DNA of 64,000 bases. Source: an uncultured Bacteroidales bacterium. Its GTDB lineage: Bacteria; Bacteroidota; Bacteroidia; Bacteroidales; Muribaculaceae. Below the pieces are notes generated by a model. The model made no database searches. It saw only the letters and a program-made list of their open reading frames with translations, and had not been told where the DNA came from. Below, in pieces: positions 3,307-64,000 of this stretch. Numbering within the stretch: position 1 is the first letter of the stretch; the number at the start of each line of letters is the position of its first letter. Both the position numbers and the translations under genes were made by a program. The stretch is from contig CACYQB010000015.1 of NCBI GenBank assembly GCA_902776435.1, positions 33,935 through 97,934 on the forward strand. Direction: 5' to 3'.

Positions 3307-3358
3307 GGGTGTGAGGCTTTGTCAATGATAAAGAATTAGATTAAATCAATTAGTGGCG

Positions 3359-40712: not shown

Positions 40713-42106
40713 ATACGATTGACTTGACAGGTGTCGGCAGTGACACCATCTGTGCAGTCTCCACGCCACAGGGTAGGGGAGGCATCGCTGTTATCCGTGT
40801 AAGTGGCCCTCAGGCGTTGGAAATTGTTCAGAAGCGCTGGCAGGGCAAACCGTTAGCCGATATGTCAACCCACACTGTTCACCTGGGGCAGTTGACCGAT
40901 ACCACGGGCGACGTGCTCGACCAGGTGGTGCTGACTGTCTATCGCGCACCCAATTCGTTCACGGGTGAGGACGTGGTGGAACTGGCTTGCCACGGCTCGA
41001 CATGGATTCAGCAGCAAGCCATCCAGACGCTCATTGATGCGGGCTGCCGCCATGCGATGGCGGGCGAATTCACTCGCCGCGCCTTTGCCAACGGCCGCAT
41101 GGACCTTTCACAGGCCGAAGCCGTTGCCGATGTCATCGAGGCACAGTCTCGTGCTGCGCACCATGTGGCGATGAGCCAGATGCGCGGTCGTTATAGCGAA
41201 GAGTTGAAAGGTTTGCGTGAAAAGTTGTTGCACTTCGTGTCGCTCATTGAACTTGAACTGGACTTTAGCGAGGAGGATGTGACCTTTGCCGACCGTGGCG
41301 AGGTGACAGCCTTGGCACACGAAATCCATGACCTCATCAGCCGCCTAGCCGATAGTTACCGTGACGGCAACGCCATCCGTAATGGTATGCCCGTCGCCAT
41401 CGTCGGTCAGACCAATGCAGGTAAATCCACATTGCTCAATGCCCTGCTGCGTGACGACCGAGCACTGGTGAGCAACATTCATGGCACCACGCGCGACACT
41501 ATCGAGGACACCGTGGTGATGAACGGCATGTTGTTCCGCTTTATCGACACGGCAGGCATCCGTCAGGCAACTGATGCCGTTGAACGGATGGGCATCGAGC
41601 GCACATGGCAAGCTATCGACAAGGCCAATGTCGTGCTCTGGATTGTTGACGTCACTAGCGCAGACACCAGCATGGCCCATGACATCCTGTCCCACTGCAA
41701 GGGCAAAGCCCTCATCGTTGTGCTCAACAAAACCGACCTTGACGACGATTTTGCCGCAAGGAGTGAGTTAAATGACCTTCTTCCCGAGGGTACGCCAGTC
41801 GTGGCCATCAGTGCTAAACGTGATGCCGACATCGAGTTCTTGCGCGACCTCATCGTCAAGAACGCCTCTTTGCCCGAAGTGGACAATGATGCAGTCATCG
41901 TTACCAATGCCCGCCACTACCAAGCCTTGACGCATGCCCGCGATGCCATCGCCCGTGCTATCACGGCCCTGAATGGCGGCCTCAGCGGTGATCTCCTTGA
42001 CCAAGACATCCGTGAATGCCTCCACTGGCTCGGCGAAATCACCGGCACCGTCACCACCGACAACATCCTCGCCGAAATCTTCACCCACTTCTGCATCGGC
42101 AAATAG
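40709..42106 (+). CDS. mnmE: tRNA modification GTPase MnmE
   Basis: 465 residues. N-terminal folate-binding domain (TICAVSTPQGRGGIAVIRVS), helical domain, and inserted GTPase with G1 GQTNAGKST, G3 DTAGI, and G4 NKTD. The C-terminal FCIGK carries the catalytic Cys. With MnmG it modifies U34 of certain tRNAs. It is the last backbone gene before the mobile element, followed at once by a terminator. Confidence 0.95.
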   Translation: MNTIDLTGVGSDTICAVSTPQGRGGIAVIRVSGPQALEIVQKRWQGKPLADMSTHTVHLGQLTDTTGDVLDQVVLTVYRAPNSFTGEDVVELACHGSTWIQQQAIQTLIDAGCRHAMAGEFTRRAFANGRMDLSQAEAVADVIEAQSRAAHHVAMSQMRGRYSEELKGLREKLLHFVSLIELELDFSEEDVTFADRGEVTALAHEIHDLISRLADSYRDGNAIRNGMPVAIVGQTNAGKSTLLNALLRDDRALVSNIHGTTRDTIEDTVVMNGMLFRFIDTAGIRQATDAVERMGIERTWQAIDKANVVLWIVDVTSADTSMAHDILSHCKGKALIVVLNKTDLDDDFAARSELNDLLPEGTPVVAISAKRDADIEFLRDLIVKNASLPEVDNDAVIVTNARHYQALTHARDAIARAITALNGGLSGDLLDQDIRECLHWLGEITGTVTTDNILAEIFTHFCIGK

Positions 42107-42432: not shown

Positions 42433-43980
42433 ATGGAAATAGAGAAACGATGTCAGTGGTGCGGGAAACAATTCATAGCACACAAAATGACGACTCTTTA
42501 CTGCTCTTCAAGCTGTGTTAACAAGGCTTACAAGGCAAAAAAGAAACAGATGATGAAAGAAGAAGTCGAGCAGGAACAACACTCCAAGTTGCCCATCGTT
42601 GAAAGTCTTGGAGACAAACCATACCTAAGCCCAATGGAAGCTGCAAAGCTTCTGGGTGTGGGAAAAACAACCATATATAGGTATATGGCTCAGGGGCAAT
42701 TCAAGGTTCTTAGACTACCGGCCAAGACCCTCGTAAGAAGAATTGATTTGGAGGCCATGTTTGACAATGCCCCCGCATATGTCAAGCGGAACAACCACAG
42801 GCATAAGATCGAGCACGATAGCTATACAATGAAGGAGATTTGTGAGAAATATCAAGTGACCCGAAAAGTGGCCATGCGACGGATTGAGCAGTTCGACATC
42901 CCAAAGATATACGAGGGACGCAATGTGTCCTTCTCAAAAACTGCCGTTGACAGGTACTTTTCCGAACTCATCGAGGACTTTGATAAGGAGAATTACTACA
43001 CCATCCAACAGGTTATGGAGAAGTTCAACATGTCCTACTCTGCCGTCATTTCTTTTGCCAAACGGCATAAGTTACCAAGGGTCACCAGGCGGAGGGAAGT
43101 GTTCTATTCCAAACCCCATATCGACAGCCTGAAAGGTATTGGTGAAGCTATTGATCCTCTCTACTACACTTTCAAGGAGGTGATGGAGAAGTACGGATTC
43201 ACAAAAGATCAAGTAAGCCATTATCTCCATACCTATCATATTGACCGCTTCAAACGAGGTACTTTTACAATGATTAACCGGAAGGAGTTTGACAAGACAA
43301 TCAAGGAACGCATGCATGGATTCACAAGCATCTCTGAACTCAACGCAAAGATTGAAGAAGCAAAGGAAGACCGAACAAGAACAGAGCAAATCACACTTCA
43401 TTCTGGTAGCATTGAAATCATACCAAGTGTGGAATCAGAGAATGATGCAGATGGGTACGAAGGCTATATTAGTGCCGAGGAGATTGCTGCACGATACAAA
43501 CAAAGTAAAAAGTGGGTTGGCTTCCTACTGCGTCAGAAAAAAATACCGAGGGTGCAGGTAGCAGGAATCCTGCTCTACGATGAGACAGCGGTTGACGATG
43601 TATTCAGCAGATACTCGTCAGCAGACTCTATCACAGAATGGTACACCACAGATGATATAGAAAAGATGTACAACATGACACCTGTGGCCAGACGCAGCTT
43701 TACTCATCGTCACAATATCCCTACAAAAAAGGAGTATGGCATCACGTATTACTCCAAGCTCCATGTTGACTTTGCACGTAATCCAGGGCTCCAATATGCC
43801 GAAGACTACTACATGGTCGAGCAGATTATGGCCAAGTATCATGTTGACAGGGAGACTGTGTATGGTATTGTCAGATACAAAAAAATCCCGAGCGTCAAAG
43901 ACGGCCAGTTCAGAGTGTATCTTAAATCCGCCATCGATAAGTACTTTTCCGATAAACAAGAGAAGGACAATAAGAAATAA
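42433..43980 (+). CDS. Zinc-finger protein with seven tandem excisionase-type helix-turn-helix units
   Basis: 515 residues. A short zinc-binding start (CQWCGKQF, then CSSSC) is followed by repeated ~50-65-residue units, each of the form YYTxxEIxxKYxVT-x-IPxxx-x-YxKxxIDxxF. Units begin at about YLSPMEAAKLLGVGKTTIYR, YTMKEICEKYQVTRK, YTIQQVMEKFNMSYS, YTFKEVMEKYGFTKD, YISAEEIAARYKQSK, YTTDDIEKMYNMTPV and YMVEQIMAKYHVDRE. Single units resemble the MerR/Xis DNA-binding fold. It precedes the integrase and may organise integrase-DNA complexes or control excision; this is inference. The product is much longer than a normal excisionase. Confidence 0.8.
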   Translation: MEIEKRCQWCGKQFIAHKMTTLYCSSSCVNKAYKAKKKQMMKEEVEQEQHSKLPIVESLGDKPYLSPMEAAKLLGVGKTTIYRYMAQGQFKVLRLPAKTLVRRIDLEAMFDNAPAYVKRNNHRHKIEHDSYTMKEICEKYQVTRKVAMRRIEQFDIPKIYEGRNVSFSKTAVDRYFSELIEDFDKENYYTIQQVMEKFNMSYSAVISFAKRHKLPRVTRRREVFYSKPHIDSLKGIGEAIDPLYYTFKEVMEKYGFTKDQVSHYLHTYHIDRFKRGTFTMINRKEFDKTIKERMHGFTSISELNAKIEEAKEDRTRTEQITLHSGSIEIIPSVESENDADGYEGYISAEEIAARYKQSKKWVGFLLRQKKIPRVQVAGILLYDETAVDDVFSRYSSADSITEWYTTDDIEKMYNMTPVARRSFTHRHNIPTKKEYGITYYSKLHVDFARNPGLQYAEDYYMVEQIMAKYHVDRETVYGIVRYKKIPSVKDGQFRVYLKSAIDKYFSDKQEKDNKK

Positions 43981-44082: not shown

Positions 44083-45252
44083 ATGCAGTACTGCAAGACA
44101 ATCACACTTCGGAAACGCATCCTCAAATGCGGGATGATTTCCCTCTATCTGGACTATTATCCAGGCTATCGTGACATCATTTCTATGAAGACCATCCGTC
44201 GTGAATCACTTGGTATTTACATTTATCCCAAGCCTCAAAACAAGCGTGAGAAGGACTTCAATAAGGTAATGATTGAAAAAGCTGAAGCCATCCGTTGCAG
44301 GCGTTTTGAGTCCATCGTGAACGAACGTTATGACATTTTTGACAAAAAAAGATTCAACGGCGACTTCCTTGCCTACTTCTATCAGATGCTTCAAAACAAA
44401 GACCCCAAGTGGAGGTTTGTCTATGAACACTTCTCATACTTTGTTGGCGGCAAGTGCCGCTGCGAAGAAATCGACGTTGATCTGTGCAACAAGTTCCGCG
44501 AATACCTTCTGACAGCAAAGAACATGCGCAACGGCAGACCGATGGCCATCAACTCAGTCGCTGGCTATTGGTCAACATTCCGTGGCTTCCTGAATATTGC
44601 TTACCGTGACAAGATGATCCGAACTAACCCCAATGACTTCTTGGACAAAATCAAGACCATTCCTGTTGACAAGCAGAGTCTGTCAATGGAAGAGCTTCGC
44701 AGGCTTTACCGTACTCCATGTGACATCGACGTACTGAAAAAGGCATCAATTTTCGCTTGCTTAACAGGTATGCGCCGAAGTGACATCATCAATCTCAGAT
44801 GGGAAAACATCAAGGAATACGCCGACGGCAACAAGTATGTCGAGTTCTATGCACAAAAGACTAAAACACGTAACCTTATCCCCATCACCATGGGAGCATA
44901 CGAACTCATCTCTGAGGGACGAAAATCCTTATATGGGCCCGTATTTGACGGGTTTGAGATAGACATGGCACGGAAACCGCTGAAAACCTGGCTTGCTAAG
45001 GCTGGTATCAGAAAGCGGATAACATTCCATTCATTCCGGCATACTTTCGCATCGCTTCAAGTGGAACTTGGCACTGATCTCTACACTGTCCAGCAGCTCC
45101 TGGCACACAAGAGTGTCACAACCACACAAATCTATGCTTGTCATGCCGACCCAAAGAGACGGGAAGCTGCCGAAAGAATATCATCCATGCTTCTCGGTGA
45201 TGATGGTAAAAAAGCAACGGCTCAAACCAAGAAAACGAAGAATTGTGGCTAA
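44083..45252 (+). CDS. int: Tyrosine recombinase (integrase) of the mobile element
   Basis: 389 residues. An N-terminal arm-type domain is followed by a SAM-like core-binding domain (YFYQMLQNKDPKWRFVYEHF) and the catalytic domain with Arg in LTGMRRSDIINLRW, H316-x-x-R319 (HSFRHTFASL), H342 and nucleophile Tyr351 in TTTQIYACH. This is the typical Bacteroidota integrative-element integrase. It probably moves the element in and out at a site near mnmE; the exact att core was not determined. Lower G+C than the backbone. Confidence 0.9.
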   Translation: MQYCKTITLRKRILKCGMISLYLDYYPGYRDIISMKTIRRESLGIYIYPKPQNKREKDFNKVMIEKAEAIRCRRFESIVNERYDIFDKKRFNGDFLAYFYQMLQNKDPKWRFVYEHFSYFVGGKCRCEEIDVDLCNKFREYLLTAKNMRNGRPMAINSVAGYWSTFRGFLNIAYRDKMIRTNPNDFLDKIKTIPVDKQSLSMEELRRLYRTPCDIDVLKKASIFACLTGMRRSDIINLRWENIKEYADGNKYVEFYAQKTKTRNLIPITMGAYELISEGRKSLYGPVFDGFEIDMARKPLKTWLAKAGIRKRITFHSFRHTFASLQVELGTDLYTVQQLLAHKSVTTTQIYACHADPKRREAAERISSMLLGDDGKKATAQTKKTKNCG

Positions 45253-45393: not shown

Positions 45394-46149
45394 ATGAAGA
45401 GCAAAAAGGTTACGGAACTTTTCTTTTTGGTTGTAGGCTGTATTGCAATGGGTTTATATACAGCAATGCTTTTCGAGTGGATTGATTGTGCCGACTGGTT
45501 CATACTTCCCTCAAAGTTCATCAGCGGACAGTATGAGCAAGCAAAAGCCTTCACACCCATCTTATATATTACCCTGGCGCTGCTGGTTCTTATCAGGATG
45601 ACATTCATCAGTTATGCAATGGGCAAGACGGTAGTTGTTATCCCTCATAGTAAGCAGCAGTTGCGTCTTGTCACTGGATCAAAAAACGATTCAATGACAG
45701 AAGAGCCGGAGAAAGATAAGACTGAGGTCATCAGAGAACGCCATCAGCAGCAGCTCATCCAACGTAAGCGTCAAATTATGACATGTGTTTTGGAGTACGT
45801 GAAGCTCACACTGGCCCCCTACATGAAGACCTCTGACCTCAATGTCTTTTGTGAAAACATCAAAAATTGGGAGACCTCAAAGGACATTGCACCGTCGCCG
45901 TCCATAACCAACGGTCAACTTTCAACATTGGACCTCAGACATTTAGCCTGGAACATCGGAGAACGTTTCAAGTGGAATGGTGAGCAACGGGCCATATTTA
46001 TTAAGCGGTCGTTCCCCAATGAGTTCCGAGATCTTGAAATCAAATCAATCCGGCAAAACCTGCGACAGCATGGTACTTGCATCATCCCGATAGACATCCC
46101 GGACAAAGGCTGTTTCAAGTTTCATACCCCATCCGCCAGCTTGCCATAA
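45394..46149 (+). CDS. Hypothetical membrane protein of the mobile element, 251 aa
   Basis: No family recognised. Two N-terminal transmembrane segments (LFFLVVGCIAMGLYTAMLF; ILYITLALLVLIRMTFISYA) precede a charged linker (TEEPEKDKTEVIRERHQQQL). The cytoplasmic C-terminal half ends in a helical part with LDLRHLAWNIGERFKWNGEQ. It sits between integrase and excisionase genes and has the shared promoter motif, so it belongs to the element core. Confidence 0.7.
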   Translation: MKSKKVTELFFLVVGCIAMGLYTAMLFEWIDCADWFILPSKFISGQYEQAKAFTPILYITLALLVLIRMTFISYAMGKTVVVIPHSKQQLRLVTGSKNDSMTEEPEKDKTEVIRERHQQQLIQRKRQIMTCVLEYVKLTLAPYMKTSDLNVFCENIKNWETSKDIAPSPSITNGQLSTLDLRHLAWNIGERFKWNGEQRAIFIKRSFPNEFRDLEIKSIRQNLRQHGTCIIPIDIPDKGCFKFHTPSASLP

Positions 46150-46268: not shown

Positions 46269-46655
46269 ATGCAAGAACAGATTACATTCAACGACCTTCC
46301 CATGATGGTCTCACAGGTGCTCAGCAAAATGGAGCGGCTTGAACGTGTAATTGAAACCATCAGAGAACGGATAGACGGCAATTCCACATCTTCAGCCGAA
46401 CATATTCCAATGACTATTGACGAGGCATGTGACTTCCTGAAGATGAAGAAATCAACAATGTACTATCACGTAGAACGTGGCAACATCACAGTCACCAAAC
46501 GAGGGAAAAACTTCATTTTTTTCAAAGATGAACTTGTACATTGGCTTGAAGGTGGCAGGAAGAACCAGGAAAGCAGCATGAATCCAGACGAAGAGAATGA
46601 CATGCGCCTGGCTTCATTCAGACGAAAACCCAAAGGATTCTATCCAAGAAGATGA
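46269..46655 (+). CDS. Excisionase-like helix-turn-helix protein
   Basis: 128 residues. A coiled-coil start (MVSQVLSKMERLERVIETIR) precedes a single MerR/Xis-type HTH (MTIDEACDFLKMKKSTMYYH, then VERGNITVTKRGKNFIFFKD). The basic tail (FRRKPKGFYPRR) fits DNA binding. Likely the recombination directionality factor or a regulator of the element. The defence cargo starts downstream. Confidence 0.8.
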   Translation: MQEQITFNDLPMMVSQVLSKMERLERVIETIRERIDGNSTSSAEHIPMTIDEACDFLKMKKSTMYYHVERGNITVTKRGKNFIFFKDELVHWLEGGRKNQESSMNPDEENDMRLASFRRKPKGFYPRR

Positions 46656-46931
46656 CTCATCCCCACCCAAGATGCGCCCATGCCAAATTTCTGTGTCTTT
46701 CTACTTTCCAGCCATTGGCATCGCTTTTGTCCATCACGTCTCGGCCTTTCGTGCAAGCATGAAAGCCTTCGCAGTATTGGACAATGACCAGTGAGAGTCG
46801 CCGAGAAACTCTGTGATGTATGTACTGGAGAATGCAAGTCAGACAACAGACATGCCTTCTCTTTTCCGTACATATAACACGGAGTTTCTTTTTCGACGAC
46901 ACTCAAAGGTCACCACCATGCAATGGCCTGG

Positions 46932-46980
46932 CAGGCAGATTCATTGTTGGCATGGACTGCATCACCACCCTCATTCATCT
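46932..46980. repeat. 49-bp perfect direct repeat, left copy flanking the defence cargo
   Basis: The segment starting CAGGCAGATTCATTGTTGGC and ending CCCTCATTCATCT is identical to 52079-52127. Similarity (about 65-70%) continues ~35 bases on the right and weaker on the left (GTCACCAC...GCA...TGGC). On the minus strand both copies open a short frame MNEGGDAVHANNESACQ (22 codons here, 46910-46978); on the plus strand they read GRFIVGMDCITTLIHLK. No gene is otherwise supported in the 403-base stretch 46656-47058. Confidence 0.9.
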
Positions 46981-47058
46981 AAAGCAAAATATCCTCACAC
47001 CAGATTGCCTATCTTTCATATATCCAAATAACCAAATTCAACAAATACTTATATTGTG

Positions 47059-47532
47059 TTAATTATGCTGAAGCCTTGCGCCCGTTTGATTGTTATTTGT
47101 TTCCGTCTTTTCGACATCCCAGTTTCCGTGGCCACCACCCATCCACTTACCTGTTGAAACCCATATTTCATAATAGTACATCCACTCTACCGCCCAATGC
47201 ACTATCGTATTTGCGATAACCATTGATGACCTCCATTCCCCTGACCATGGCAAATACAGGCACAATTGTTGTTTGCCATCTTTAAAAATATATGTATGTG
47301 GCAGACGTTTCGCGCCCTCAGCTAATGGTAGTGGTTTTGGTGACACAATAAATACCTTCGGGGCAGCACCGAGGGTATAAGAAATCTTCAGCCTATAGGT
47401 GTTTGATAAAGCCGAAGGTGTGAACTCCCCAAACCAAGTCATCGTGCCACAATAAACTGAGCCTGACGATCCGGGGAATTCATGCTTCAGTAAGTTAAAT
47501 TGACGTATTGGTGTTATCGCCTTACTCTCCAT
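47059..47532 (-). CDS. E2-like protein of a type II-short CBASS operon
   Basis: 157 residues. The conserved pattern is that of stand-alone bacterial E2 (ubiquitin-conjugating-like) proteins in CBASS: His79 in RLPHTYIF, candidate catalytic Cys91 in KQQLCLYLP, then GEWRSSMVIANTIVHWAVEW and a YYEIW-STGKWMGGG segment. In type II-short CBASS such proteins act on the C-terminus of the CD-NTase. It overlaps the CD-NTase gene by 11 bases, so synthesis is coupled. The identification rests on pattern and context. Confidence 0.72.
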   Translation of the reverse strand: MESKAITPIRQFNLLKHEFPGSSGSVYCGTMTWFGEFTPSALSNTYRLKISYTLGAAPKVFIVSPKPLPLAEGAKRLPHTYIFKDGKQQLCLYLPWSGEWRSSMVIANTIVHWAVEWMYYYEIWVSTGKWMGGGHGNWDVEKTETNNNQTGARLQHN

Positions 47533-48754
47533 AAAAGGTGTGCGCAGTGTTTATTATTTTCCCATTGGGACTTGCTGCAACTTTCCCTGTTCTTGTCAAA
47601 AGAACAGCACCAGTAGCAAGCTTTGATTTCCTTCGTTCGACCAAAAGAGATGCAGCTTTTGTTGTAACTTCCTTTCCAAACACGCGCCCCATGGTGGCCT
47701 GAATCTGCATTCTCGTAGAACCTTTCAGGATCTCGTTCACATCCTTCTTGACAGTAGCAAGCCAATTGTAGAAATTATTACGTCTTGTAGGATGGCTTGG
47801 CCATTTATCCGCAAAATTCTCCTCAGGGTTAACTGGATTTGACACCACATCCTCACCTTTCTCATTCTTGGTGATAAACCTCTCCATATTATCGACCACA
47901 TTTATCAAACCGTCAAGCAGGTTTTTCTCACCACTGTAGGCGCGAGCTGCCAATGTTGTAATGATAATGGATATCGGCTTGTCATCCTTATTATTGCAGA
48001 ACATCATGTCCCTATGACGTTTTAGTATCTGAACAATGCGTTGTAGAACGGTTTTGTTCTTCGTGTACTTCCCAATCGGCACAACGGCCTCAGCCATAAG
48101 CTTTACGGACTCATCCGCTTTACACCGGCTAGCGAACCACAATGCATAACCGTCTGGATTGCTCTTCAACCAGTTTTCTTTACGGGTAGAAATGGCATAA
48201 TCCCAAGCCTTTTTATCTGTGATGCGGATAGAAATCTGATCAACAGTTTCTTCCGAAAAACTATCAGAATACAAACGAGCCATTTTTTCATTATATTTTC
48301 CGTCAGCCACTGCAGGTAAAATATCCATGTGATATTTCTCTTTAGGATTATCCGAGTTATCTCTATATAGCAATGTCCAGCAACGGCGACCTTCTGTCTG
48401 TGACAACATCGAAGCATAGCGATCACTGCGCTTGAGTCGCGCACCTACCTTGTCTTTCAAATCCTTCTGTGTCCACAGTGGACTCTTCTCCGTCAATCGG
48501 AACACCAAATCCACATCTATGTCTTCGTCTGAATTAATAGGCTGAATGATGGTTCCCAGTCTAAGAGAGCCTTGTGGAGTCACAACTGGTGTATAAGGTT
48601 CAAACGTTGGGTCATTCTGCAAGAAATCTCCAACGGCTTTATAGCTCCTTGCAAGATTGTCAAATTGAGTCTCGTTAATGTCCAATGACTCACCCAGAGT
48701 TTCAAGAATATCCTTAAACTCTTCTTTCTGTTCCTCACTTAAATTACGTTGCAT
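47522..48754 (-). CDS. CBASS CD-NTase (CdnG-like cyclic-oligonucleotide synthase)
   Basis: 410 residues. Nucleotidyltransferase core: G62-S63 in TPQGSLRLGT, metal Asp residues in DEDIDVDLVF (D80, D82) and D144 in YHMDILPAV. The C-terminal half is the helical OAS-like domain. The protein ends FYGE. Pairing with an HNH-SAVED effector suggests the CdnG clade, whose studied members make 3',2'-cGAMP; the product here is not proven. Eleven bases separate it from the effector gene. In this system phage infection would trigger synthesis of the messenger. Confidence 0.85.
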   Translation of the reverse strand: MQRNLSEEQKEEFKDILETLGESLDINETQFDNLARSYKAVGDFLQNDPTFEPYTPVVTPQGSLRLGTIIQPINSDEDIDVDLVFRLTEKSPLWTQKDLKDKVGARLKRSDRYASMLSQTEGRRCWTLLYRDNSDNPKEKYHMDILPAVADGKYNEKMARLYSDSFSEETVDQISIRITDKKAWDYAISTRKENWLKSNPDGYALWFASRCKADESVKLMAEAVVPIGKYTKNKTVLQRIVQILKRHRDMMFCNNKDDKPISIIITTLAARAYSGEKNLLDGLINVVDNMERFITKNEKGEDVVSNPVNPEENFADKWPSHPTRRNNFYNWLATVKKDVNEILKGSTRMQIQATMGRVFGKEVTTKAASLLVERRKSKLATGAVLLTRTGKVAASPNGKIINTAHTFYGE

Positions 48755-48765
48755 TCTACTCTATT

Positions 48766-49887
48766 TTATTTTATTGTTAGTATTTCTATATCTTCATCCG
48801 TTTCGGCTCTATAATCAAACAACACCCAAGGCAAGTCCGCCTTAGGCATCCTGATGCGCCCTAGTTCTACAGCGCAAGAAGCTGGAGCCGCCATAAAGAT
48901 TTTCAAATTGTCAGCCTGAGGATGGGCGGTCTTGATAGCATCCATTGTTGCTCGTGCCACTCGGTTGAACTGATGGAATTGTTCTTCGCTGCGCATCATA
49001 TCATTCCCTGGTTCATCACATGTGATAACCCAGATACTTGCTTTTTCACCCAAACGCCTTATAATCCTTTCTTTGATGGCCTTGGCACTCAATGCTATCA
49101 CTAACACAGGATTCTTACCCTCGACAATGGGCTTTTCTAACCGAATGTCGTTTTTAACATCCTCATCAAGCCAACGCCAAGTGCGTGGTATACGATGCAT
49201 TTGATACACGCGTACATGGTATTTGTCATTTAGCACGGTGCCGAGTTTCACCAAAAGCGGTTGGGGACCTAGTGGAAATAAAGAGACGTGAGCCGTAATA
49301 CCATTCTCAATGGCCTTGAGAACCTTATCTGCACACAATTTGTCTATTTGAAGTTTCTCGATAAGCCAGTAGTCTGGATCTCCCTCATCGAGCACCGAGT
49401 TCTTCATTTGGATTTCCACAGGATCTAAAGTTGCTGGGTATCGATCAGGGAAAATAGCATTGTGAAGCTCTTCTTTTTGAAAGTACGGAACATCTTTTCC
49501 GATCTTAGGGCCATATGCCACCACCAAGCTCTTATTCTCTGGCTGTATGGCTGTAGCCATCCATATGCGGTCTTCGTGTTCTTTTTTCATTGCCCTCAGT
49601 AATTCCTCTGAGTATTTTTCCACTCCTTCGTGATCAATCAGTTTGTGGCACTCTGGGCAAAGCAACATAAGATTACTTGGATCTTTGGCAAGTTCTTTTG
49701 ATCTGCTATCGCCCCTTGGACCATCCTCAGAATCTCCAATAATATGAGCATAGTTTGAGATATTACACTTATCCATCGTAATACCGTTCACATCCAGTCG
49801 TTTATTACAGCCCCTAAACTCACACCTTCCATGAGCTGCGAACCACAGTTCTCGTCTAACGTTAATATTAATATGTGTTTTACTCAT
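48766..49887 (-). CDS. cap5: Cap5-type HNH-SAVED effector nuclease of CBASS
   Basis: 373 residues. The N-terminal HNH domain has zinc or structural cysteines (GRCEFRGCNKRL), the metal His in NYAHIIGDSEDGPRGDS, and NLMLLCPECHKLID. Residues ~140-373 form a SAVED domain (VAYGPKIGKDVPYF, FPLGPQPLLVKLGTVL, LKIFMAAPASCAVELGRIRM) that binds the cyclic dinucleotide made by the adjacent synthase. Binding activates degradation of DNA and abortive infection. First gene of the three-gene minus-strand operon. Confidence 0.88.
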   Translation of the reverse strand: MSKTHININVRRELWFAAHGRCEFRGCNKRLDVNGITMDKCNISNYAHIIGDSEDGPRGDSRSKELAKDPSNLMLLCPECHKLIDHEGVEKYSEELLRAMKKEHEDRIWMATAIQPENKSLVVAYGPKIGKDVPYFQKEELHNAIFPDRYPATLDPVEIQMKNSVLDEGDPDYWLIEKLQIDKLCADKVLKAIENGITAHVSLFPLGPQPLLVKLGTVLNDKYHVRVYQMHRIPRTWRWLDEDVKNDIRLEKPIVEGKNPVLVIALSAKAIKERIIRRLGEKASIWVITCDEPGNDMMRSEEQFHQFNRVARATMDAIKTAHPQADNLKIFMAAPASCAVELGRIRMPKADLPWVLFDYRAETDEDIEILTIK

Positions 49888-50090
49888 GCATTATAAAATT
49901 TTAAACTATTTACTATAATTCACTTCAATTATCGTGCCAACAAATAAAACCATGCCAGTTTGTCACTTTATAGTCCATTTCGGCAAAAATGTCAGTTAAT
50001 TATCCGATTAAAATCGCATTATTTGAGCATTTTATTTTTTTGTCTCAAAAAATATTTGCATCTTTGCAGCCAAAAATCAACTGACCAATT
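49888..50090. promoter_or_regulatory. Divergent promoter region between CBASS and RloAB
   Basis: 203 A+T-rich bases between the cap5 start (minus) and the rloA start (plus). CATCTTTG at 50059-50066 is a near match to the -7 box for rloA, with TTTTTTTG about 16 bases upstream. The minus-strand promoter for cap5 was not pinned down. Confidence 0.4.
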
Positions 50091-51377
50091 ATGATACAAG
50101 AAATTAAATTCCAGAACTTCCTCTCCTTTCGCGACGAGACCATTTTCAGCTTTGAGCCGTTAAAGGATGACCCGATTAACCGTGTAGTCACAATGCCTGA
50201 CGGAACCAAATTGCTTCGGTTCGCCGCCATTTTTGGGGCCAATGCCTCTGGCAAATCAAATTTTCTTGAAGTTTTCGACTTTCTGCTTAATTTCTGGACA
50301 CAATTACCTTCGCGTAACGATCTTTCTACTAGAGTGTCACCGTTCTTGCTTGACAAAGACACACCCTTGCAGGACTCTCTATTTGAAATAAAGTTCTATG
50401 TTAAGGGTGTCCGCTATTGGTACAAACTGGAACTTAACAATGAACGTGTTTCAGGCGAGTCTCTTTATTTCTACGAATCCAACCAGCCAACTCGTATTTT
50501 TTGGCGCGAATACATTGATGGGCAATCCGTGGTTAAGTTTAACTACGCAGTTGTAAAACTGAAAGTTGCAGAACTTGACGCCATCAACCTTAATTGCTGG
50601 AAAAACATGTCTTTCTTCGCATCCATGACAAAGGTCAATCTACATATTGATCGTATTGATACTGTCCTCCGATGGATTAATGAAAAACTCATGCCTGGAA
50701 TCAATCGAAGTACAGAACTGTCTGGATACGCCAAAAGCCGTATGCTTAAAGATGAATCCTTCCGCAATTATCTCATGTCATTTACTCAGAAGGCCGACTT
50801 GCGCATATCAAGGATAGATGTCAAAGAAACGCCCTTTAGTCTCAACGAGAGTCAACTCAAAGCCATCTCTGAGGCAAAATTCATTAACGAGAAACAACGG
50901 GAAGATATTCTTGCTAAAGGCTTTATAAATGACATTCAGACAGATTTCGTTGTTCACGTTAAGAACACTCGCGGTGAAGAAGAATACATCTTACCCGAGA
51001 CCAGTCAGTCAGCAGGGACTACACGTGTAATCGAAATTGAGTCTGCCATCCATACCATTTTGGAGAATCAAGCCTTTCTGGCTATCGATGAGGTTGAGGC
51101 ATCACTTCACCCCTTCCTCTTGGATTTCATCTTAGATAGATTCCTCAAAAAAGAAGACAATGAGTCACAATTATTGGTTACAACGCATTATGATCCACTC
51201 CTTGATACCATAGATGACCTATTTGGAAAGGATTCAGTGTGGTTTACTGATAAAAGAGAAGATGGAAATACGGAACTCTACCCCCTAACTGACTTCAAGG
51301 GCTTGAACAAATTAAAATCTATACGAAAATCATACAAAAACGGTCAATTCGGAGCTGTTCCAGAAATTTATGTTTAA
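50091..51377 (+). CDS. rloA: RloA/AbiLi-type AAA ATPase
   Basis: 428 residues. N-terminal Walker A G49-ANASGK-S56 in FGANASGKSN, an RecF/SMC-like insertion, then the Walker B-like AFLAIDEVEASLHP and the H-loop LLVTTHYDPLLD. This is the OLD/RloA family ATPase. With RloB, 5 bases downstream, it forms the AbiL-type abortive infection pair. It is likely the sensor/regulator for the nuclease partner, by analogy. Confidence 0.85.
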   Translation: MIQEIKFQNFLSFRDETIFSFEPLKDDPINRVVTMPDGTKLLRFAAIFGANASGKSNFLEVFDFLLNFWTQLPSRNDLSTRVSPFLLDKDTPLQDSLFEIKFYVKGVRYWYKLELNNERVSGESLYFYESNQPTRIFWREYIDGQSVVKFNYAVVKLKVAELDAINLNCWKNMSFFASMTKVNLHIDRIDTVLRWINEKLMPGINRSTELSGYAKSRMLKDESFRNYLMSFTQKADLRISRIDVKETPFSLNESQLKAISEAKFINEKQREDILAKGFINDIQTDFVVHVKNTRGEEEYILPETSQSAGTTRVIEIESAIHTILENQAFLAIDEVEASLHPFLLDFILDRFLKKEDNESQLLVTTHYDPLLDTIDDLFGKDSVWFTDKREDGNTELYPLTDFKGLNKLKSIRKSYKNGQFGAVPEIYV

Positions 51378-51382
51378 ATAAT

Positions 51383-51988
51383 ATGGCAAGAAAAAGAAAG
51401 GAACGAGAATTGCGCCGCTCGCGAATAACAGTAATTGGTGAGGGGTTGACAGAACGCTGGTACTTTGACCATTTGCGCACTGTTATGGGTTTCCGTTATG
51501 ACTGCAAACCCCGTTTTTTTACACATCAATCCTATGACGAGATGCGTAAACTAATCGAGCTGGTCCTTCAAGACGACGGCATTGCCGTGTGCGTCTGTGA
51601 TGCTGACATTACCCGCATCAACCCGGTTGAAAGCGTGCGACTTAAAGAAATGAAAGATAAATATGCCTCGAACGACAAGGTATTTATCTGTGATAGCATG
51701 CCTTCTATCGAATTTTGGTTTTTACTCCACTTTTTGGAAACCAGTCGATTTTTTAATGATTCTAATGAAGTTTCCAACATCCTCCGTCGGTATATACCTG
51801 CATTCCAGAAACACAGCTTTTTCTTGGAGAAAGTTCACTGGGTATCAGACCTTTGTGCCGACGACAAGTTAGCAACCGCTTGCTCGCGCGCCAATTTTTT
51901 AAGCCAGAACCAACAAGCCAAATCGTATTCCAATATATTCAAAGCAATAGAACTGTTTTTAGCTAACCAAAAAACGAAACAATTGTAG
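51383..51988 (+). CDS. rloB: RloB/AbiLii-type Toprim-like protein
   Basis: 201 residues. A basic start (MARKRKERELRRSRITVIGE) leads into a Toprim-like metal site: E20 and E24 in IGEGLTERWYF and the acidic CVCDADITR. SMPSIEFWFLLHFLETSRFF is typical of RloB. Its usual partner is RloA. Predicted effector of the pair, probably a nuclease. The 376-base stretch 51989-52364 after it holds only the right repeat copy and a terminator. Confidence 0.85.
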   Translation: MARKRKERELRRSRITVIGEGLTERWYFDHLRTVMGFRYDCKPRFFTHQSYDEMRKLIELVLQDDGIAVCVCDADITRINPVESVRLKEMKDKYASNDKVFICDSMPSIEFWFLLHFLETSRFFNDSNEVSNILRRYIPAFQKHSFFLEKVHWVSDLCADDKLATACSRANFLSQNQQAKSYSNIFKAIELFLANQKTKQL

Positions 51989-52078
51989 ACGATGAAAAAA
52001 TGATCATAATTTGCACACCTTTGCTTGTGTTACGGTTTATATAAGATTCACAAGTCGTCACCACGCACTTGGCGTTGA

Positions 52079-52127
52079 CAGGCAGATTCATTGTTGGCAT
52101 GGACTGCATCACCACCCTCATTCATCT
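52079..52127. repeat. 49-bp perfect direct repeat, right copy flanking the defence cargo
   Basis: Identical to 46932-46980, in the same orientation, 5.15 kb away. Flanks diverge, while the 49-bp core is unchanged. On the minus strand it opens a 25-codon frame (52048-52125) with the same first 17 residues as the left copy. The cargo between the two copies is exactly the CBASS and RloAB genes. Confidence 0.9.
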
Positions 52128-52270
52128 GAAATATAATAGCTTCATATGAGATTGCTTTATTTTCTTGTAGCGATGTAGCGAAGCAGGAACGGCCCCATTT
52201 TTCTTTTTAAATATCAGTGACTTACGTTTCGCTACATGGTTTATTTCAGGTTTTGTTTCGCTACAAAAAA

Positions 52271-52364: not shown

Positions 52365-54482
52365 TTATTTGAACTCATTACACTTTGGACAGAACCAGTA
52401 TGATTGCTTCTTCTTTTTACTGTACACGCTTATCAGCGGCAGACCGCATGTCGGGCAAAGCTTGATGACAGGCTTCATCCGCAGGTCCGCATAGAAGATT
52501 GGTTTCAGAGTGGTCGGATGTACACAAGAATTCTCCTGACAGATCCAGAAGTGCTTCTTGGTCTTCGGGGAATACTTGCGTACAAGCGTTTTACGATGGC
52601 ATACAGGACATTCCCTATTGGGAACCTCCTGACCTTCAGCTGCCTTGATCGTCAATGACATACAAGGGGAGCTCTCTTCTGCGAACTTAATGTTTTCCTG
52701 AACCATCCTCTCGGTCTGCTCCATAAAGTCATCCAACCCCATCTTGCCATCGGCAATGGCCGAGAGATTATACTCCATTTCTGCCGTAAGGTCGGGCTTG
52801 GTCAATGATTCGTGAATGCTCTCGATCATTGCCACGCCTAAGTCAGTCGGAACGAGTTCCTTGCCCTTTTTCTGAATACAGGGAAACGAATGAGACTTTC
52901 CTGACGATATGGCGAGCAAGTCAGCAATGATGCTATCACGAGTTGCCGGCGTTCCAATGCCTTTGCACTCCTTCAGTTTCTCTCTGTTAGGATTGTCCGG
53001 GTTGACAAAACGCCAGATATTGGTCATCGCTGCCAGCAGCGAGCCTTCCGTAAAACGCTTAGGGGGAGCCGTCTTCTTATCCTCTATAATATATACAGGT
53101 ATAGGGAACTCATCGCCAACCACAAGGTTTGGAATGTCTTTGACTTCATCCTCCTTGTCATCCGACTTAGCAACACTACGCCATCCTGGACTGACAACCG
53201 CCTTGCCAGTTCCTGCGAACATACATCCTTGTGCCTCTATTTCGTATTTGATAGCGTTGTATTTACAAGGGGGAAAGAACTGGATGATGTACCGAATGGC
53301 TATCATTTCATAAATCTTGCGCTCCCATTCGTCCAAGTCTTTTGGGACAACGCCAGTCGGTATCAGCGCATGATGTGCGCTGACCTTGTTGTCATTGAAG
53401 CAGCGACTCTTTATTGTGGAGTCGGCATGGAGTGCAGCCTCCATGCCATAATCGCCAAGGGATTTCAAAATTCGGACACCATCCTGGTGTTGACTTGATG
53501 GGATGTAATTACAGTCAGAACGTGGATAGCTCACGAACTTCTTTTCATACAAGGACTGTACTCTTGCAAGCACACTCGACGGAGACATGCCATAACGCTT
53601 ATTGGCTTCCACCTGCAAAGTATCGATGGAGTAAGGCAATGGCGAACTTTCAGTCTGGCTATGCCTCTCGCAGTGGGTGACCCTTGCGGTTTTATTTTTG
53701 ATTTCTTCCTTGATCCGCTCCAGATATTTCCGGTCAATGATACGCCCTTCGCAGTCAGTCGGAGCATCCGCTGTCGGTGTCAATGTTGCCGTGAAGGGGA
53801 TGCCGCCCTTTGAGAGGTTGGCCTTCAATTCATAGTAGTTGATGGAATGGAAATCTTTTATCTCCTTTTCCCGATTGACCACCAAAGCAAGCGTGGGTGT
53901 CTTCACGCGCCCTACACGCCAGACACAACCATTCCCGCCTGTCCTGGCACTGATCGTATATGCCCTCGACAGATTGATGCCTACTAACCAGTCTGCCCGT
54001 TCACGCGCCATGCCTGCATGGTACAATGAACGGAACCGTTCATTCGGCACGATATTGTCAAACGCCCGTTTCATACTGTCGCTGTCTTTGGCATTGATGA
54101 GAATGCGCCGTACATCCCCCTTATAGCCTACATATTCCAATATTTCGTCAATCAGCAACTGTCCCTCACGGTCAGGGTCACCGCCATTGACTACGACATC
54201 GGCCTTCTTCAAAACAGTGCGGATATATTCAAATTGTCCCTTGGCTGTTGGCGAGGGGAGTTTCTTCCATTCTGTCGGGAATATGGGATATTTCTTAAAA
54301 TCAGCATATTCCTTACCGTAGGCCTCAGGCATAGCCGTCATCAAAATGTGGCCAAATGCCCATGTCACGATGACATCATCTTTCTGATAGCAGTGCTTGC
54401 TCCTACAGGCGACAAAATCAGTCCACAAGTAAGACGCTATGGCTGTGGCGATGTCCGGCTTTTCTGCAATATAAACTGTCAT
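52365..54482 (-). CDS. topB: DNA topoisomerase III of the mobile element
   Basis: 705 residues. N-terminal Toprim (MTVYIAEKPDIATAIASYLW, VNGGDPDREGQLLIDEIL) with acidic metal residues, the active-site Tyr in KKFVSYPRSDCNY, and two C-terminal zinc-finger-like parts (CPVCHRKT, CQENSC; CPTCGLPL, CPKCNEF). Topoisomerase III genes are typical of Bacteroidota conjugative and mobilizable elements, where they help process or resolve transfer DNA. The upstream resolvase-like gene is 11 bases away in the same direction. Confidence 0.92.
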   Translation of the reverse strand: MTVYIAEKPDIATAIASYLWTDFVACRSKHCYQKDDVIVTWAFGHILMTAMPEAYGKEYADFKKYPIFPTEWKKLPSPTAKGQFEYIRTVLKKADVVVNGGDPDREGQLLIDEILEYVGYKGDVRRILINAKDSDSMKRAFDNIVPNERFRSLYHAGMARERADWLVGINLSRAYTISARTGGNGCVWRVGRVKTPTLALVVNREKEIKDFHSINYYELKANLSKGGIPFTATLTPTADAPTDCEGRIIDRKYLERIKEEIKNKTARVTHCERHSQTESSPLPYSIDTLQVEANKRYGMSPSSVLARVQSLYEKKFVSYPRSDCNYIPSSQHQDGVRILKSLGDYGMEAALHADSTIKSRCFNDNKVSAHHALIPTGVVPKDLDEWERKIYEMIAIRYIIQFFPPCKYNAIKYEIEAQGCMFAGTGKAVVSPGWRSVAKSDDKEDEVKDIPNLVVGDEFPIPVYIIEDKKTAPPKRFTEGSLLAAMTNIWRFVNPDNPNREKLKECKGIGTPATRDSIIADLLAISSGKSHSFPCIQKKGKELVPTDLGVAMIESIHESLTKPDLTAEMEYNLSAIADGKMGLDDFMEQTERMVQENIKFAEESSPCMSLTIKAAEGQEVPNRECPVCHRKTLVRKYSPKTKKHFWICQENSCVHPTTLKPIFYADLRMKPVIKLCPTCGLPLISVYSKKKKQSYWFCPKCNEFK

Positions 54483-58227: not shown

Positions 58228-58368
58228 GAGCTTGCTCCTCTGAACAAAGGGATATGATGTCGAACAAAGGGAAGGGAGTTTTATAAAAACTCTTAGCCTA
58301 ATAAGAGTTAACATTCATTAACTCATTAGGCTGCCTCTCCTGAAGGAGTTCCTACGGGGAGCAAGCTC
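58228..58368. other. Candidate oriT: cluster of hairpins and direct repeats upstream of the relaxase
   Basis: GAGCTTGCTC (58228-58237) is the inverted partner of GAGCAAGCTC (58359-58368). Between them lie GAACAAAGGGA twice at 20-base spacing (58242, 58262), a 7-bp hairpin GAGTTTT-ATA-AAAACTC (58276-58292), and a strong stem AGCCTAAT..GAGTTAA / TTAACTC..ATTAGGCT (58295-58332) with a two-base bulge and loop CATTCA. No gene is supported here. Nick site unknown. Confidence 0.5.
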
Positions 58369-58397
58369 AGGCAAAAGTGATTAATAGACACAAAAAA

Positions 58398-59852
58398 ATG
58401 GCAGAAAAGAAACAAGTAATGGATGTGCGTCCGAACAAGGATGGCATATCAAAACTGGAAAGCAACGAGCAGCAGCGCAACTGGTCAGAAAACCTTTGGG
58501 ACAGAAAATCCAAAGACAGCCTTGCCAATTACGACCCGACTCGTGCCCATCTGAACTTCGAGGTTACAAAAGGAGGAACGATTCAGCCGATAGACAAGTC
58601 CAAGAGCATTGACGAGAGGATGAAAGACATCCTCAACTCACGTGGTATCAAAAATCCTAACGCCAGGGCTAAGGCACGCAGAAAGCAGCGGATCCTTGCC
58701 CAGATGATATTCGGCGGCAGTAGAGGGCGCATGTTGGAAATGGCGTTCGGGGAGCAGGACTTAAATCTCAATAAAGGGGCGGATAACTCAAAACTAACGA
58801 GAACCAAGGACATTGAGACATGGGCGGCTGAAGTCTATGGCTTTGTTGCCCGAAAATTCGGCGAGGAAAACATCGTCAGTTTCTACGTTCATTTGGATGA
58901 AACGAATCCTCATTGCCACTGTACCGTCCTACCCATAGACGAAAAGAACCATCGGATTTCATGGACAAGCTTTTTCGGGAAGAATCCCATGGCAGAAAAA
59001 GCAACTTTTACACGACTTCATAATGAACTGTATGAGGAGGTCAACAGTCACTGGGGGCTTGAACGTGGCAGCAATAAGGCGGAAACAGGCGCAAGGCATC
59101 GCTCGACAGAGGAATACAAACGTGACCTCATCAACCAGGTGCAGCAGTTGGAGAATACTAGAGAAGGATTACAAAGACAGATTCGTAGAGCCGAGATCAA
59201 ACTGAAAGGATTGTCCACGATGATAGAGAACTTACAGACCCGGAAAGAAAAAATAAACGAAGAAATAAAACTTATCGCTCAGCAACTTGGAGAGGACGGA
59301 CAGGACAAGGAGCAGTTAGCCAATCGCATGGAAGAGCTCCGTAAACAGATGGAAGACATCGATCAGAAGATGGCGGACAAGCAAAGGATGTTGGACGAAA
59401 CGGAATCCGAACTATCGAATGCCAAAACGGAACTTGAAAAACTGAAGCGAGCGCATGGCGAAATGTCTAAATCAATCGGAGATGACATCGACAGAAGGGC
59501 TGAAATAGTTCACTCAAACATCAATGCCACTTATTATAAGATGGTGGCGTCCTCGATGGAACCTCTTTTGCCTACCCTTAATGCGGAACAACATGAGATT
59601 TTAGATAAGTCCGGCTTCTTTGACCTCAGAAACAATTCTCAACATATCATCAACTGCGCCCTTCTGTTGGCCATCAACTACATCAGTCAGGCCACGACCT
59701 ATGCAGAATCTTGTGGTGGTGGAGGCAGCAGTAATATGTCTGGATGGGGACGAGACAAGGAGGACGATGATGAGCGCTGGTGGATGAGGTGCATCATACA
59801 GGCAGCTGCAATGGTCAGACCTGCGGGTCGAAAAATCAAAAGAGGCAGATAG
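58398..59852 (+). CDS. MobV-family relaxase (plasmid recombination/mobilisation protein)
   Basis: 484 residues from ATG 58398; a GTG at 58377 in frame is an alternative. The Pre/Mob core motif is HLDETNPHCHCTV (H-x-DE-xx-PH-x-H, the metal-binding triad). A long coiled coil follows (LENTREGLQRQIRRAEIKLK to ~residue 370), then a Gly-rich and basic tail. The relaxase would nick the element at oriT and lead the transferred strand. No coupling protein or mating-pair genes are seen, so transfer needs a helper. Confidence 0.88.
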   Translation: MAEKKQVMDVRPNKDGISKLESNEQQRNWSENLWDRKSKDSLANYDPTRAHLNFEVTKGGTIQPIDKSKSIDERMKDILNSRGIKNPNARAKARRKQRILAQMIFGGSRGRMLEMAFGEQDLNLNKGADNSKLTRTKDIETWAAEVYGFVARKFGEENIVSFYVHLDETNPHCHCTVLPIDEKNHRISWTSFFGKNPMAEKATFTRLHNELYEEVNSHWGLERGSNKAETGARHRSTEEYKRDLINQVQQLENTREGLQRQIRRAEIKLKGLSTMIENLQTRKEKINEEIKLIAQQLGEDGQDKEQLANRMEELRKQMEDIDQKMADKQRMLDETESELSNAKTELEKLKRAHGEMSKSIGDDIDRRAEIVHSNINATYYKMVASSMEPLLPTLNAEQHEILDKSGFFDLRNNSQHIINCALLLAINYISQATTYAESCGGGGSSNMSGWGRDKEDDDERWWMRCIIQAAAMVRPAGRKIKRGR

Positions 59853-61264: not shown

Positions 61265-61723
61265 ATGGACGATTATCGGGTCATCATAGCTGGCAGCCGC
61301 TCCTTCAGTAACTACGAGTTGCTGAAGGAGCATTGCCTTTCCCTGCTTCAGGAGAAAATGAGGACACATCGGGTCATCATCGTGTCCGGCCATGCCCATG
61401 GTGCTGATACAATGGGTGAAAGGTTTGCTAAGGAACAAGGGCTAACCGTTGAACTTCATCCTGCCAAATGGAGAGGCTTGGGCAAGGCGGCTGGCATGAT
61501 ACGCAATGCAGAAATGGCAAGAGCCTCTGATGCCCTGATAGCGTTCTGGAACGGCAAAAGTCGTGGCACGGCTCACATGATCAGTTTTGCCAGGCGAAGA
61601 GGATTGGAGGTCTCTATTGTAGACGAATTGAATCTGAACCCCTCTTTCACCTCACACCCAGATAAATCTGTAACTTCCACAGTACATGATGAAAAACAAT
61701 CATCAAAATCATGGCATCGATGA
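61265..61723 (+). CDS. DUF2493/SLOG-family protein
   Basis: 152 residues. The Rossmann-like SLOG/YpsA-related motifs are VIIAGSRSFSNYELLKEHCL, VSGHAHGADTMGERFAKEQG and LIAFWNGKSRGTAHMISFAR. Such proteins may bind nucleotide ligands; their role in mobile elements is not established. It starts right at the end of the OmpA gene. It is the last well-supported gene of the element. Confidence 0.85.
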   Translation: MDDYRVIIAGSRSFSNYELLKEHCLSLLQEKMRTHRVIIVSGHAHGADTMGERFAKEQGLTVELHPAKWRGLGKAAGMIRNAEMARASDALIAFWNGKSRGTAHMISFARRRGLEVSIVDELNLNPSFTSHPDKSVTSTVHDEKQSSKSWHR

Positions 61724-62003
61724 ATGCATTTGTAATGATTTCAAAACCGTAAAAAAGGCATTGATAATAGAGGAGTATTGTCAAGTAAAGTATTACAAAA
61801 AATATCTCTACCTTGTTATAATCATTCACATGACACAATTCGAATACAAGCGAAATACTAATAATAGCATGAATGATTGTACAAAGTCCGTTTTTCATAT
61901 AACCGCAAAAGGCAATAATAGATTCGTTGGTATTTAAAAACATTGCAACGGATTAAATATCAAGTGCATAAACGAGCTGCCCCAATGAGGCAATTATAAT
62001 GTC

Positions 62004-62470
62004 ATCGGGTTTATCGGGGTTAGAAGATTTTATCTTTTGCTTCTTTTTCTTTCACACCACTGTACGTGCCATTCGACATATTACGGTGTGGCTCGCTTTA
62101 AAAGAAGTCGTTGCAGATCATCTCCGCTCACTCTGGACTTCTGATGTTGGCGGGCTGCAATCTTAGCATCATGTAAGTCAGCCATTGTGCTTCGTAAGTA
62201 ATTTACATCGGAACATATATCCTCGACTGATGTTACAAACCTTTCGACCCTTCGCCTTAACTTGCACGCAGTTGGCCACTTCGGCCTCGGCCAATTTTTC
62301 GGAATTCGTTGTTACTATCCTATATCGGACTGCAGAGACCTCACGGGATAAGCCATACATCTTTCATCGTTTACCTGCCAGTAAAATCCCAGGGAACCAC
62401 CCCCACTTCTTTGAAAAAACCTCCAACTCTTTCGGACTCCATCACATAATTTCACAATACAGGGTTTGCT
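62004..62470 (-). ncRNA. Possible ORF-less group II intron remnant
   Basis: Read on the minus strand, 62053-62094 resembles a domain V-like hairpin: GAGCCAC at its start, ACGTAC then GTGGTGTGAAAG at its end. A short stem GAAG..CTTC and AACCCGAT (62004-62011) follow, as in domain VI and the intron 3' end. The minus strand upstream to ~62470 is structured and noncoding in appearance, with no reverse transcriptase ORF. The 766-base stretch 61724-62489 shows no convincing gene. Moderate-to-weak evidence; the 5' end is a guess. Confidence 0.35.
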
Positions 62471-62489
62471 GATGACTTACAATTGAATA

Positions 62490-63965
62490 TTATTTACCAT
62501 CTAGTTCGAGTTGGTTCTTTACTAATGTATAATATCGACCCTTCATTGATAATAATTCACAATGTGTTCCCTCTTCGATAATTTTACCACCTTCTATATA
62601 TATAATCTTATCAGCATTTTTTACAGTACTGAGTCTATGCGCGGATATCACCACTGTTTTGTTCTTATAATATCTTACTAGATTGTGTATGATTGTTGAT
62701 TCATTATTAGCGTCCAACGATGAAGTTGCTTCATCTAAAAACAATAAATCTGGATTCTTATAAATAGCTCTAGCAATATACAATCTTTGTTTTTGTCCTC
62801 CACTCAACTCTATTCCATTAATTCCGATTTTAGTATTATACCCCATAGGTAAGTTTTCAATAAAAGAATCAATACAGGCTATTGCAGCAGCTTCTTTAGC
62901 CTTTTCCAAATTAGGAGTTGCAGCAGACAGCGCAATATTATCTAAAACAGTTCCGCTAAATATATATCCAGCTTGCATAACAACACCACAGTGTTCTAAC
63001 CAAACATCATTGTTAACGCCTGATAAATCTTGGTCGCCAACACATATTTTACCATGTTGTGGAGAATAAAAACCTAACATTAATTTTATTAACGTTGATT
63101 TCCCACTACCACTTGCACCAACAATAGCTGTGACTTTGTTGTGTGGTATTGAGGTTGACAAATCTTTAAGCACAAAAGGCGAAAAGCTGCCGGGATATTT
63201 AAACGACACATTATTAAAGTTTAGTGTAAAACTCTTTTCAATAATATTCGAATTCATACTTGGAGGGGTGTCAATTGACTCTTCTGAATTAATTACCTCA
63301 TCTAATCGATCATAAGAAATCGAAGCATCTTGAATAGTTGTAATAGAATTTATTATATTAGATATAGGACGTGCTAATTGACCAACTATATAACTAATCG
63401 TCATCATTGTGCCCAATGTCATTTGTTCTTGTATTACTAGCGTTGCACAAATGCCCGTAATAGAAAGGTCTTTTAAACGAGATATTAAAGTATTACCACT
63501 ATTAATAGTCATCTCCAATAATGCAGATTGTATAGACAACTTATTTATTTTCTCTTGTACACTATTCCATATGGAAACTCTATTATGTTGGGCATTGTTG
63601 ATTTTGATCTCTGACATGCCATTGATTAATTCATATACATTATTTCTATTCATAGAAGAACAAGTGAAATATGAATAATCAAGTTCCTTCCTTTTCCGTG
63701 AAAATAACATTACCCAAAAGTATGCGAGCAATGTACCCACTACAACTATTGTAAAAATAATATAGTTATAATATATCAGTAGGCCAGAAAACACTATAAG
63801 ATTAACAAAGGTGAAAAATACAGTATCTGGCATACTGACTAAAAAATTCTTAATTCGATTTTGATCGTCAATTTTTTGGATCAAATCTGGGTTTATCTTT
63901 CTATCCTCAAATCCGCAACCTATAGGGTTTAGTGGGATTTTGCTTGCAAAGCGACAAAATTCATT
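62490..63965 (-). CDS. SunT-type ABC exporter, 5' end missing or interrupted
   Basis: The frame encodes the C-terminal part of a peptide/bacteriocin exporter: a conserved DLIQKIDDQNRIKNFLV block, transmembrane segments (TFVNLIVFSGLLIYYNYIIF), then the ATPase with Walker A GASGSGKST, signature LSGGQKQR, Walker B LLFLDEAT and H-loop SAHRLS. The 3' end looks intact. Upstream it meets an in-frame stop at 63966-63968 and no ATG fits (a TTG at 63884 is the first candidate start), so the N-terminal transmembrane and peptidase part is either in another frame beyond the window or lost. Strongly A+T-rich, unlike the backbone. Confidence 0.75.
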   Translation of the reverse strand, partial: NEFCRFASKIPLNPIGCGFEDRKINPDLIQKIDDQNRIKNFLVSMPDTVFFTFVNLIVFSGLLIYYNYIIFTIVVVGTLLAYFWVMLFSRKRKELDYSYFTCSSMNRNNVYELINGMSEIKINNAQHNRVSIWNSVQEKINKLSIQSALLEMTINSGNTLISRLKDLSITGICATLVIQEQMTLGTMMTISYIVGQLARPISNIINSITTIQDASISYDRLDEVINSEESIDTPPSMNSNIIEKSFTLNFNNVSFKYPGSFSPFVLKDLSTSIPHNKVTAIVGASGSGKSTLIKLMLGFYSPQHGKICVGDQDLSGVNNDVWLEHCGVVMQAGYIFSGTVLDNIALSAATPNLEKAKEAAAIACIDSFIENLPMGYNTKIGINGIELSGGQKQRLYIARAIYKNPDLLFLDEATSSLDANNESTIIHNLVRYYKNKTVVISAHRLSTVKNADKIIYIEGGKIIEEGTHCELLSMKGRYYTLVKNQLELDGK

Positions 63966-64000
63966 TTATTGTACATATTTCTTGCACAACAGAAATGTCG

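Follow-up and report, generated by a model that had tools for sequence, protein, structure and literature searches.

A CBASS and RloAB gene block bounded by an identical 49-bp direct repeat in a putative mobilizable element of uncultured Bacteroidales

Cassettes of the integron and pdif/Xer types exist as circles that have a site of their own and carry no recombinase gene. The locus described here would be like them if its 5.1-kb unit travelled in circular form and brought a site of its own; it differs from them in a 49-bp core without inverted repeat beyond that of shuffled sequences, in the absence of a cassette series, and in homologous flanks of ~50 bp on each side. The core genes of SGI1 differ from those of the present element, whose cargo separates xis from topB. 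SGI1 targets the last 18 nt of trmE (mnmE) (PMC6531882). Like the present element, it is mobilizable, has a tyrosine recombinase, and begins on the left inside the 3′ end of mnmE/trmE. Another mobile element has a fixed place next to cos that holds many defence systems (PMC9122126). Our locus shares with it the gathering of defence genes at a fixed place of a mobile element, but here one pair of systems is present in two of 12 elements, and it is bounded by a 49-bp repeat. No fitting paper on repeat-bounded defence cargo in Bacteroidales mobilizable elements was found with the limited library and wording used. The locus is a real, single insertion in already known kinds of element.

The stretch of DNA analyzed (the window) has a length of 64,000 nt and comes from an uncultured bacterium of the Muribaculaceae (G000). 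Its features are listed in Table 1. Judged by its gene content (integrase, 251-aa protein, xis, topB, and MobV relaxase), the region is a mobilizable element, in agreement with the sequence-only reading, which had also placed core genes correctly outside the repeats (an excisionase-family HTH gene on the left and topoisomerase III on the right). An integrase and a relaxase of its own, by which an IME is recognised, were both found. Among the selected element ORFs scanned, no genes of a conjugation apparatus were recognised.

Table 1. Coordinates of the element, the repeat, and the cargo in the window.
Feature	Position	Strand	Evidence
Element left end, inside 3′ end of mnmE (approximate)	42098..42106	+	L014 and L022/G403 start matching here; their upstream DNA is unlike the window mnmE
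515-aa protein, repeated HTH_17 domains, element core gene	42433..43980	+	Pfam HTH_17
Tyrosine recombinase (integrase)	44083..45252	+	Pfam Phage_integrase, SAM-like and arm domains
251-aa conserved element protein	45394..46149	+	No Pfam or NCBIfam match; diverged homologue in sister elements
Excisionase-family HTH protein (xis-like)	46269..46655	+	Pfam HTH_17; TIGR01764 above cut-off
Left copy of 49-bp repeat	46932..46980	+	Sequence comparison
Inner left flank, diverged homologue of outer right flank 52128-52182	46981..47035	+	34/55 identical (right pair)
CBASS E2-like protein	47059..47532	-	PADLOC E2, 6.6e-48
CBASS CD-NTase (SMODS cyclase)	47522..48754	-	Pfam SMODS; PADLOC Cyclase 1.1e-125
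CBASS effector, HNH-SAVED endonuclease	48766..49887	-	Pfam SAVED and HNH; PADLOC 1.7e-135
RloA / AbiLi-like ATPase	50091..51377	+	PADLOC AbiLi 2.4e-72; Pfam AAA_21
RloB / AbiLii-like protein	51383..51988	+	Pfam RloB 7.9e-16, 59.2 bits vs cut-off 31.5; PADLOC AbiLii 3.3e-18
Inner right flank, diverged homologue of outer left flank 46884-46931	52029..52078	+	31/48 identical (left pair)
Right copy of 49-bp repeat	52079..52127	+	Sequence comparison
Topoisomerase III (topB)	52365..54482	-	TIGR01056 and NF005829 above cut-off
MobV family relaxase	58377..59852	+	NF041497, 157.8 bits vs cut-off 100

For the five elements whose mnmE end was located by an exact key (G000, G280, G307, G313, and G343), the left end did not recur over 14 bp or more, and wider scans also gave no convincing copy at the right end. 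The sequence common to the elements stops near 61723-61765 of the window in most of them. DNA beyond this point mostly differs, G000 being like G256 and G343 like G351. In G187, a 119-bp stretch that starts 9.8 kb to the right of the core resembles, at 91.6%, the DNA following mnmE in G301, and the right end of the G187 element probably lies just before this stretch. The element of G403 is found on contig C15 and mnmE on another contig (C13); this copy (L051), away from mnmE and with a hybrid left end that includes the element's copy of the mnmE tail, is a secondary integration site. Also, an inverted repeat was noted by eye at ~58295-58335, just upstream of mobV, as a candidate oriT.

Direct comparison confirmed that two 49-bp segments, as had been reported from the sequence alone, are identical and in the same orientation; their spacing is 5147 bp. 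A third copy is absent from the window at up to 18 mismatches, and a search of the whole genome at up to 3 mismatches found no further one. An exact repeat of 49 bp is far beyond chance, and the same structure is present in a second genome (G237). Each inner flank is a diverged homologue of the outer flank of the opposite side, with 65 of 103 bases identical for both pairs combined. Anchored extension reached scores of 8 on the left (about 48 bp) and 13 on the right (55 bp), and none of 2000 dinucleotide shuffles attained either value. The homology of the flanks is real, and the identity of ~65-70% given in the sequence-only reading was slightly too high (63%; both pairs in Table 1). To the right of the repeat, inspection by eye of 52170-52270 showed a TGTAGCGAAAC-like motif that recurs several times and in either orientation; G307 is without about 52 bp in the corresponding region.

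Searching 397 genomes of the family with at most 3 mismatches, we detected the 49-mer in 11 of them (own genome included), all of the same genus. Nine have one copy; two, namely our genome and G237, have two copies with the same spacing. An exact scan of genome_contigs returned 10 contigs, one of them with two copies (CACYGX010000025.1, from G237); nine of these contigs belong to genomes already counted or to G403, and the tenth is L014. Among 101 genomes of the genus, a search for empty sites yielded 10 uninterrupted sites, two filled sites, and one weak 43-bp match (G173), and a TopB search of the same genomes recovered the same 12 at 97-100% identity, the next being at most 38% identical. 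Twelve elements is perhaps a lower bound, as the G325 contig stops after 386 bp that correspond to the element's left end, and in G310, G328, and G385 the contig carrying mnmE stops within 80 bp of that gene. In 10 of the 12 elements, as well as in L014, xis is followed by a single 49-bp core and then by topB without any cargo, which is the single-copy state that the sequence-only reading had expected to see in relatives. These empty elements match the outer left flank of the filled element to the left of the core and its outer right flank to the right. Over the 4.2 kb to the left of the core, L014 does not differ from G403, and the two are therefore not independent. The cargo is a discrete insertion.

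The cargo of G237 differs from that of the window at 6 of 5098 bases (99.9% identical), while mnmE differs at 246 of 1382 (82% identical). No differences beyond these six were found from about 45.0 to 52.6 kb, and the other 500-bp windows of the element are 0-4% different as far as the G237 contig reaches (57.1 kb). Near-identical cargo together with diverged mnmE indicates one insertion present in both genomes, which moved along with the surrounding element DNA. The filled element is found in at least one further species, and the locus provides a resolved picture, before and after, of a mobile element without and with two defence systems, with exact borders. In the tree of the right side, the filled pair forms one nested clade with one change in 100% of bootstrap trees. 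In the tree of the left side, the two filled rows do not resolve and are placed between two clades of empties, with 2 changes (one change in 36% of bootstrap trees). Both trees were midpoint-rooted, and the direction of the event, gain or loss, is not settled by them.

Between the repeats lie five genes, and only defence genes, as previously read from the sequence: those of CBASS (E2-like, CD-NTase, and SAVED-HNH), followed by RloA/AbiLi and RloB/AbiLii. The CD-NTase has an adjacent effector, as required for CBASS, and each CBASS protein covers nearly the full length of its best PADLOC model. The RloA-type ATPase is followed by RloB, the order that identifies RloAB / AbiL; the AbiLi and AbiLii models were matched only partly. 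Pfam, NCBIfam, and PADLOC scans found no recombinase gene in the cassette. GC3 amounts to 0.42-0.47 for the cargo, 0.48-0.56 for five element genes, and 0.68 for mnmE; the composition of the cargo is consistent with a foreign origin.

The account that explains these observations best, and in which our confidence lies slightly above even, is that a 5.1-kb unit entered an empty MobV element as a circle by one crossover in the 49-bp core. Besides CBASS and RloAB, the incoming unit would have contained an intergenic segment of the element in a single copy of ~150 bp; judging from the flanks, the incoming molecule probably carried this site copy itself. A single crossover inside the identical core would join the unit to the empty element, with Campbell-type integration of the circle, and would leave a core on each side, the diverged flanks of the cassette inside, and the flanks of the element outside. 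One crossover in the core between diverged sites is suggested because the inner left flank resembles the outer right flank and the inner right flank the outer left one, beyond all 2000 shuffles. A double crossover in unique flanks would not give such a pattern; a circle or a tandem with its own site would. Where the inner flanks on either side are diverged homologues, entry by one crossover can be read from them, and other defence insertions could be checked for this mark.

As the agent, homologous recombination would be likelier than a recombinase, the core being the longest run of identity and conversion perhaps contributing. There is no sign of a dedicated recombinase, because inverted repeats in the core do not exceed those of shuffles (p 0.73) and the core is unlike the mnmE target of the element, the best common stretch being 7 bp (CTGCATC, p 0.52). 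On the latter ground, we rejected recombination by the integrase of the element itself at a core resembling its target. Homologous recombination is also favoured because constraint on the core is without support at the shallow depth of 10 empty elements: 2 of 49 core sites are variable, compared with 1/50 and 1/61 in the adjacent flanks, and pairwise divergence shows no dip at the site, a weak test among such close relatives. The selection on the core that the sequence-only reading had proposed was accordingly rejected at this depth. At a uniform divergence of 37%, the expectation for 49 identical bases is 0.63^49, about 2e-10, so that conversion or constraint must be added to the single-crossover account. 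RecA would have only ~150 bp of homology to act on, diverged towards the ends, which is a short length.

A true cassette slot, in which the 49-bp core is the target of a site-specific recombinase (the element's integrase or one from the host) and site-bearing cassettes enter and leave, would account for the precise empty and filled states at one core, for a cargo that brings its own version of the site, and for the lack of a recombinase gene in the cassette, a feature of integron-type cassettes. We consider it improbable in view of the single cargo type, the missing inverted repeat, the unlikeness of the core to the integrase's mnmE target, and a core no more conserved than its surroundings. 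The suggestion that cargo may be swapped also found no backing: there is one cargo type only, both filled elements share one event plus the flanking DNA, and no other cargo lies at the core among the 12 elements of the genus. Two copies enclosing different cargo, proposed as a check, did not turn up either, the two-copy cases in the 397 family genomes (at most 3 mismatches) and in the exact genome_contigs scan being only our genome and G237. A test of reuse would need a wider family than the one found, because TopB identity among the 101 genus genomes falls from 97% to at most 38%; a reusable, swappable slot is unproven.

More far-reaching, and to be taken as a tentative idea of low probability, is a recombinase-less mobile CBASS-RloAB cassette that has its own ~150-bp docking site with the 49-bp core, circulates as a circle among Bacteroidales mobilizable elements, and docks by recombination with the matching core that separates xis from topB. 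Movement of the unit as a circle, if it occurs, would let defence genes that lack a recombinase hop between mobilizable elements. Against the single-crossover entry favoured above, no donor site or circle was seen in the 397 genomes, where site model R1 gave no scores between 142 and 20 bits under strict filters that lose weak matches. Cargo DNA matched in 27 of these genomes at E<=1e-5, at full length only in our genome and G237; the next-best match is the CBASS operon alone (71%, G138), in another setting and without BLAST match to the site. With the cargo as query, the plasmid search returned one 107-base match and the phage search one of 899 bases at 65%; the two fall within the cyclase region. 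In viral_contigs, neither the repeat nor the two inner-flank patterns gave a match, and the same holds for the cyclase and TopB. The site with its flanks had no match in plasmids, and the best plasmid TopB (49% identity, Megamonas) is outside this element family. Among 295 genomes of the order, only our own TopB was recovered at the strict cut-off of E<=1e-100. A 39-bp partial site match in G050, inside a long open reading frame, looks like chance and was discarded. L186 (from G361) and L156 are diverged relatives with an integrase 78% identical, and their contigs end just behind the integrase; elements of this type are possible holders of a donor-type site.

Alternatively, the filled state could be the older one, with a duplicated site that long flanked the cargo, inner flanks that drifted, and empties that arose by deletion between the repeats. 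Deletion mediated by repeats is common, the inner flanks are diverged, and the position of the filled rows between two empty clades in the left-side tree fits this order of events. It would require at least two independent precise losses, however, and has to be set against the single nested clade in the right-side tree (midpoint rooting), a cargo GC3 unlike that of the element, and 10 empty elements out of 12, so that we regard it as unlikely. A relaxase-mediated entry, in which the site is an oriT- or RSA-like target and the fusion of circle and element is the work of the MobV (Pre-type) relaxase, would suit the presence of a MobV relaxase and the joining of plasmids at a common site by Pre proteins. 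It appears very improbable, as none of five stretches at the site folds better than its own shuffles on average, no Rfam match was found at the repeat site, the core is without inverted repeat (for which reason its identity as oriT/RSA was rejected), and the inverted repeat seen upstream of mobV is the better oriT candidate. An assembly artefact or chance repeat can practically be dismissed: the repeat-bearing contigs that have a title, ten in number, are described there as metagenome-derived or uncultured assemblies, but the structure recurs in two assembled genomes that differ by 6 substitutions in the cargo and by 18% in mnmE, and an exact 49-bp repeat is not due to chance.

A family of sister elements, with an integrase 53-59% identical, is represented in the genome of the window as well (G000 C21; L215, C21:40000-50533) and by L216, L217, and L218, the integrase identity for these four being 56-58%; the stretches read contain no topB match. 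Three sister elements have insertions: (i) G232, with NsnABC-like genes between the integrase and the 251-aa protein; (ii) G351, with a candidate defence gene (PDC-S01) between the 251-aa protein and xis; and (iii) G313, with an insertion in the same interval as that of G351 and no PADLOC match at E<=1e-10. Their borders show no exact direct repeat of at least 12 bp, except for one 12-bp match in G313. Defence cargo thus gathers near the excision genes at several points, without the 49-bp repeat.

Compared with the 49-bp site, the region at the right end of the element, variable and partly defence-like, seems to be the more active place for cargo. To the right of the element (61723-64000 of the window and its counterparts in relatives) we noted a ThsB-like TIR gene in G343, dGTPase, QueC-like, and AbiLi/PDC-M38 genes in G313, and an ABC exporter in G000; the defence scan of this region covered nine proteins of G343 and G313. 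Finally, outside the element, neighbouring long ORFs at 940-3306 and 3353-5698 of the window contain exact repeats of at least 40 bp starting at ~1029 and ~3442.
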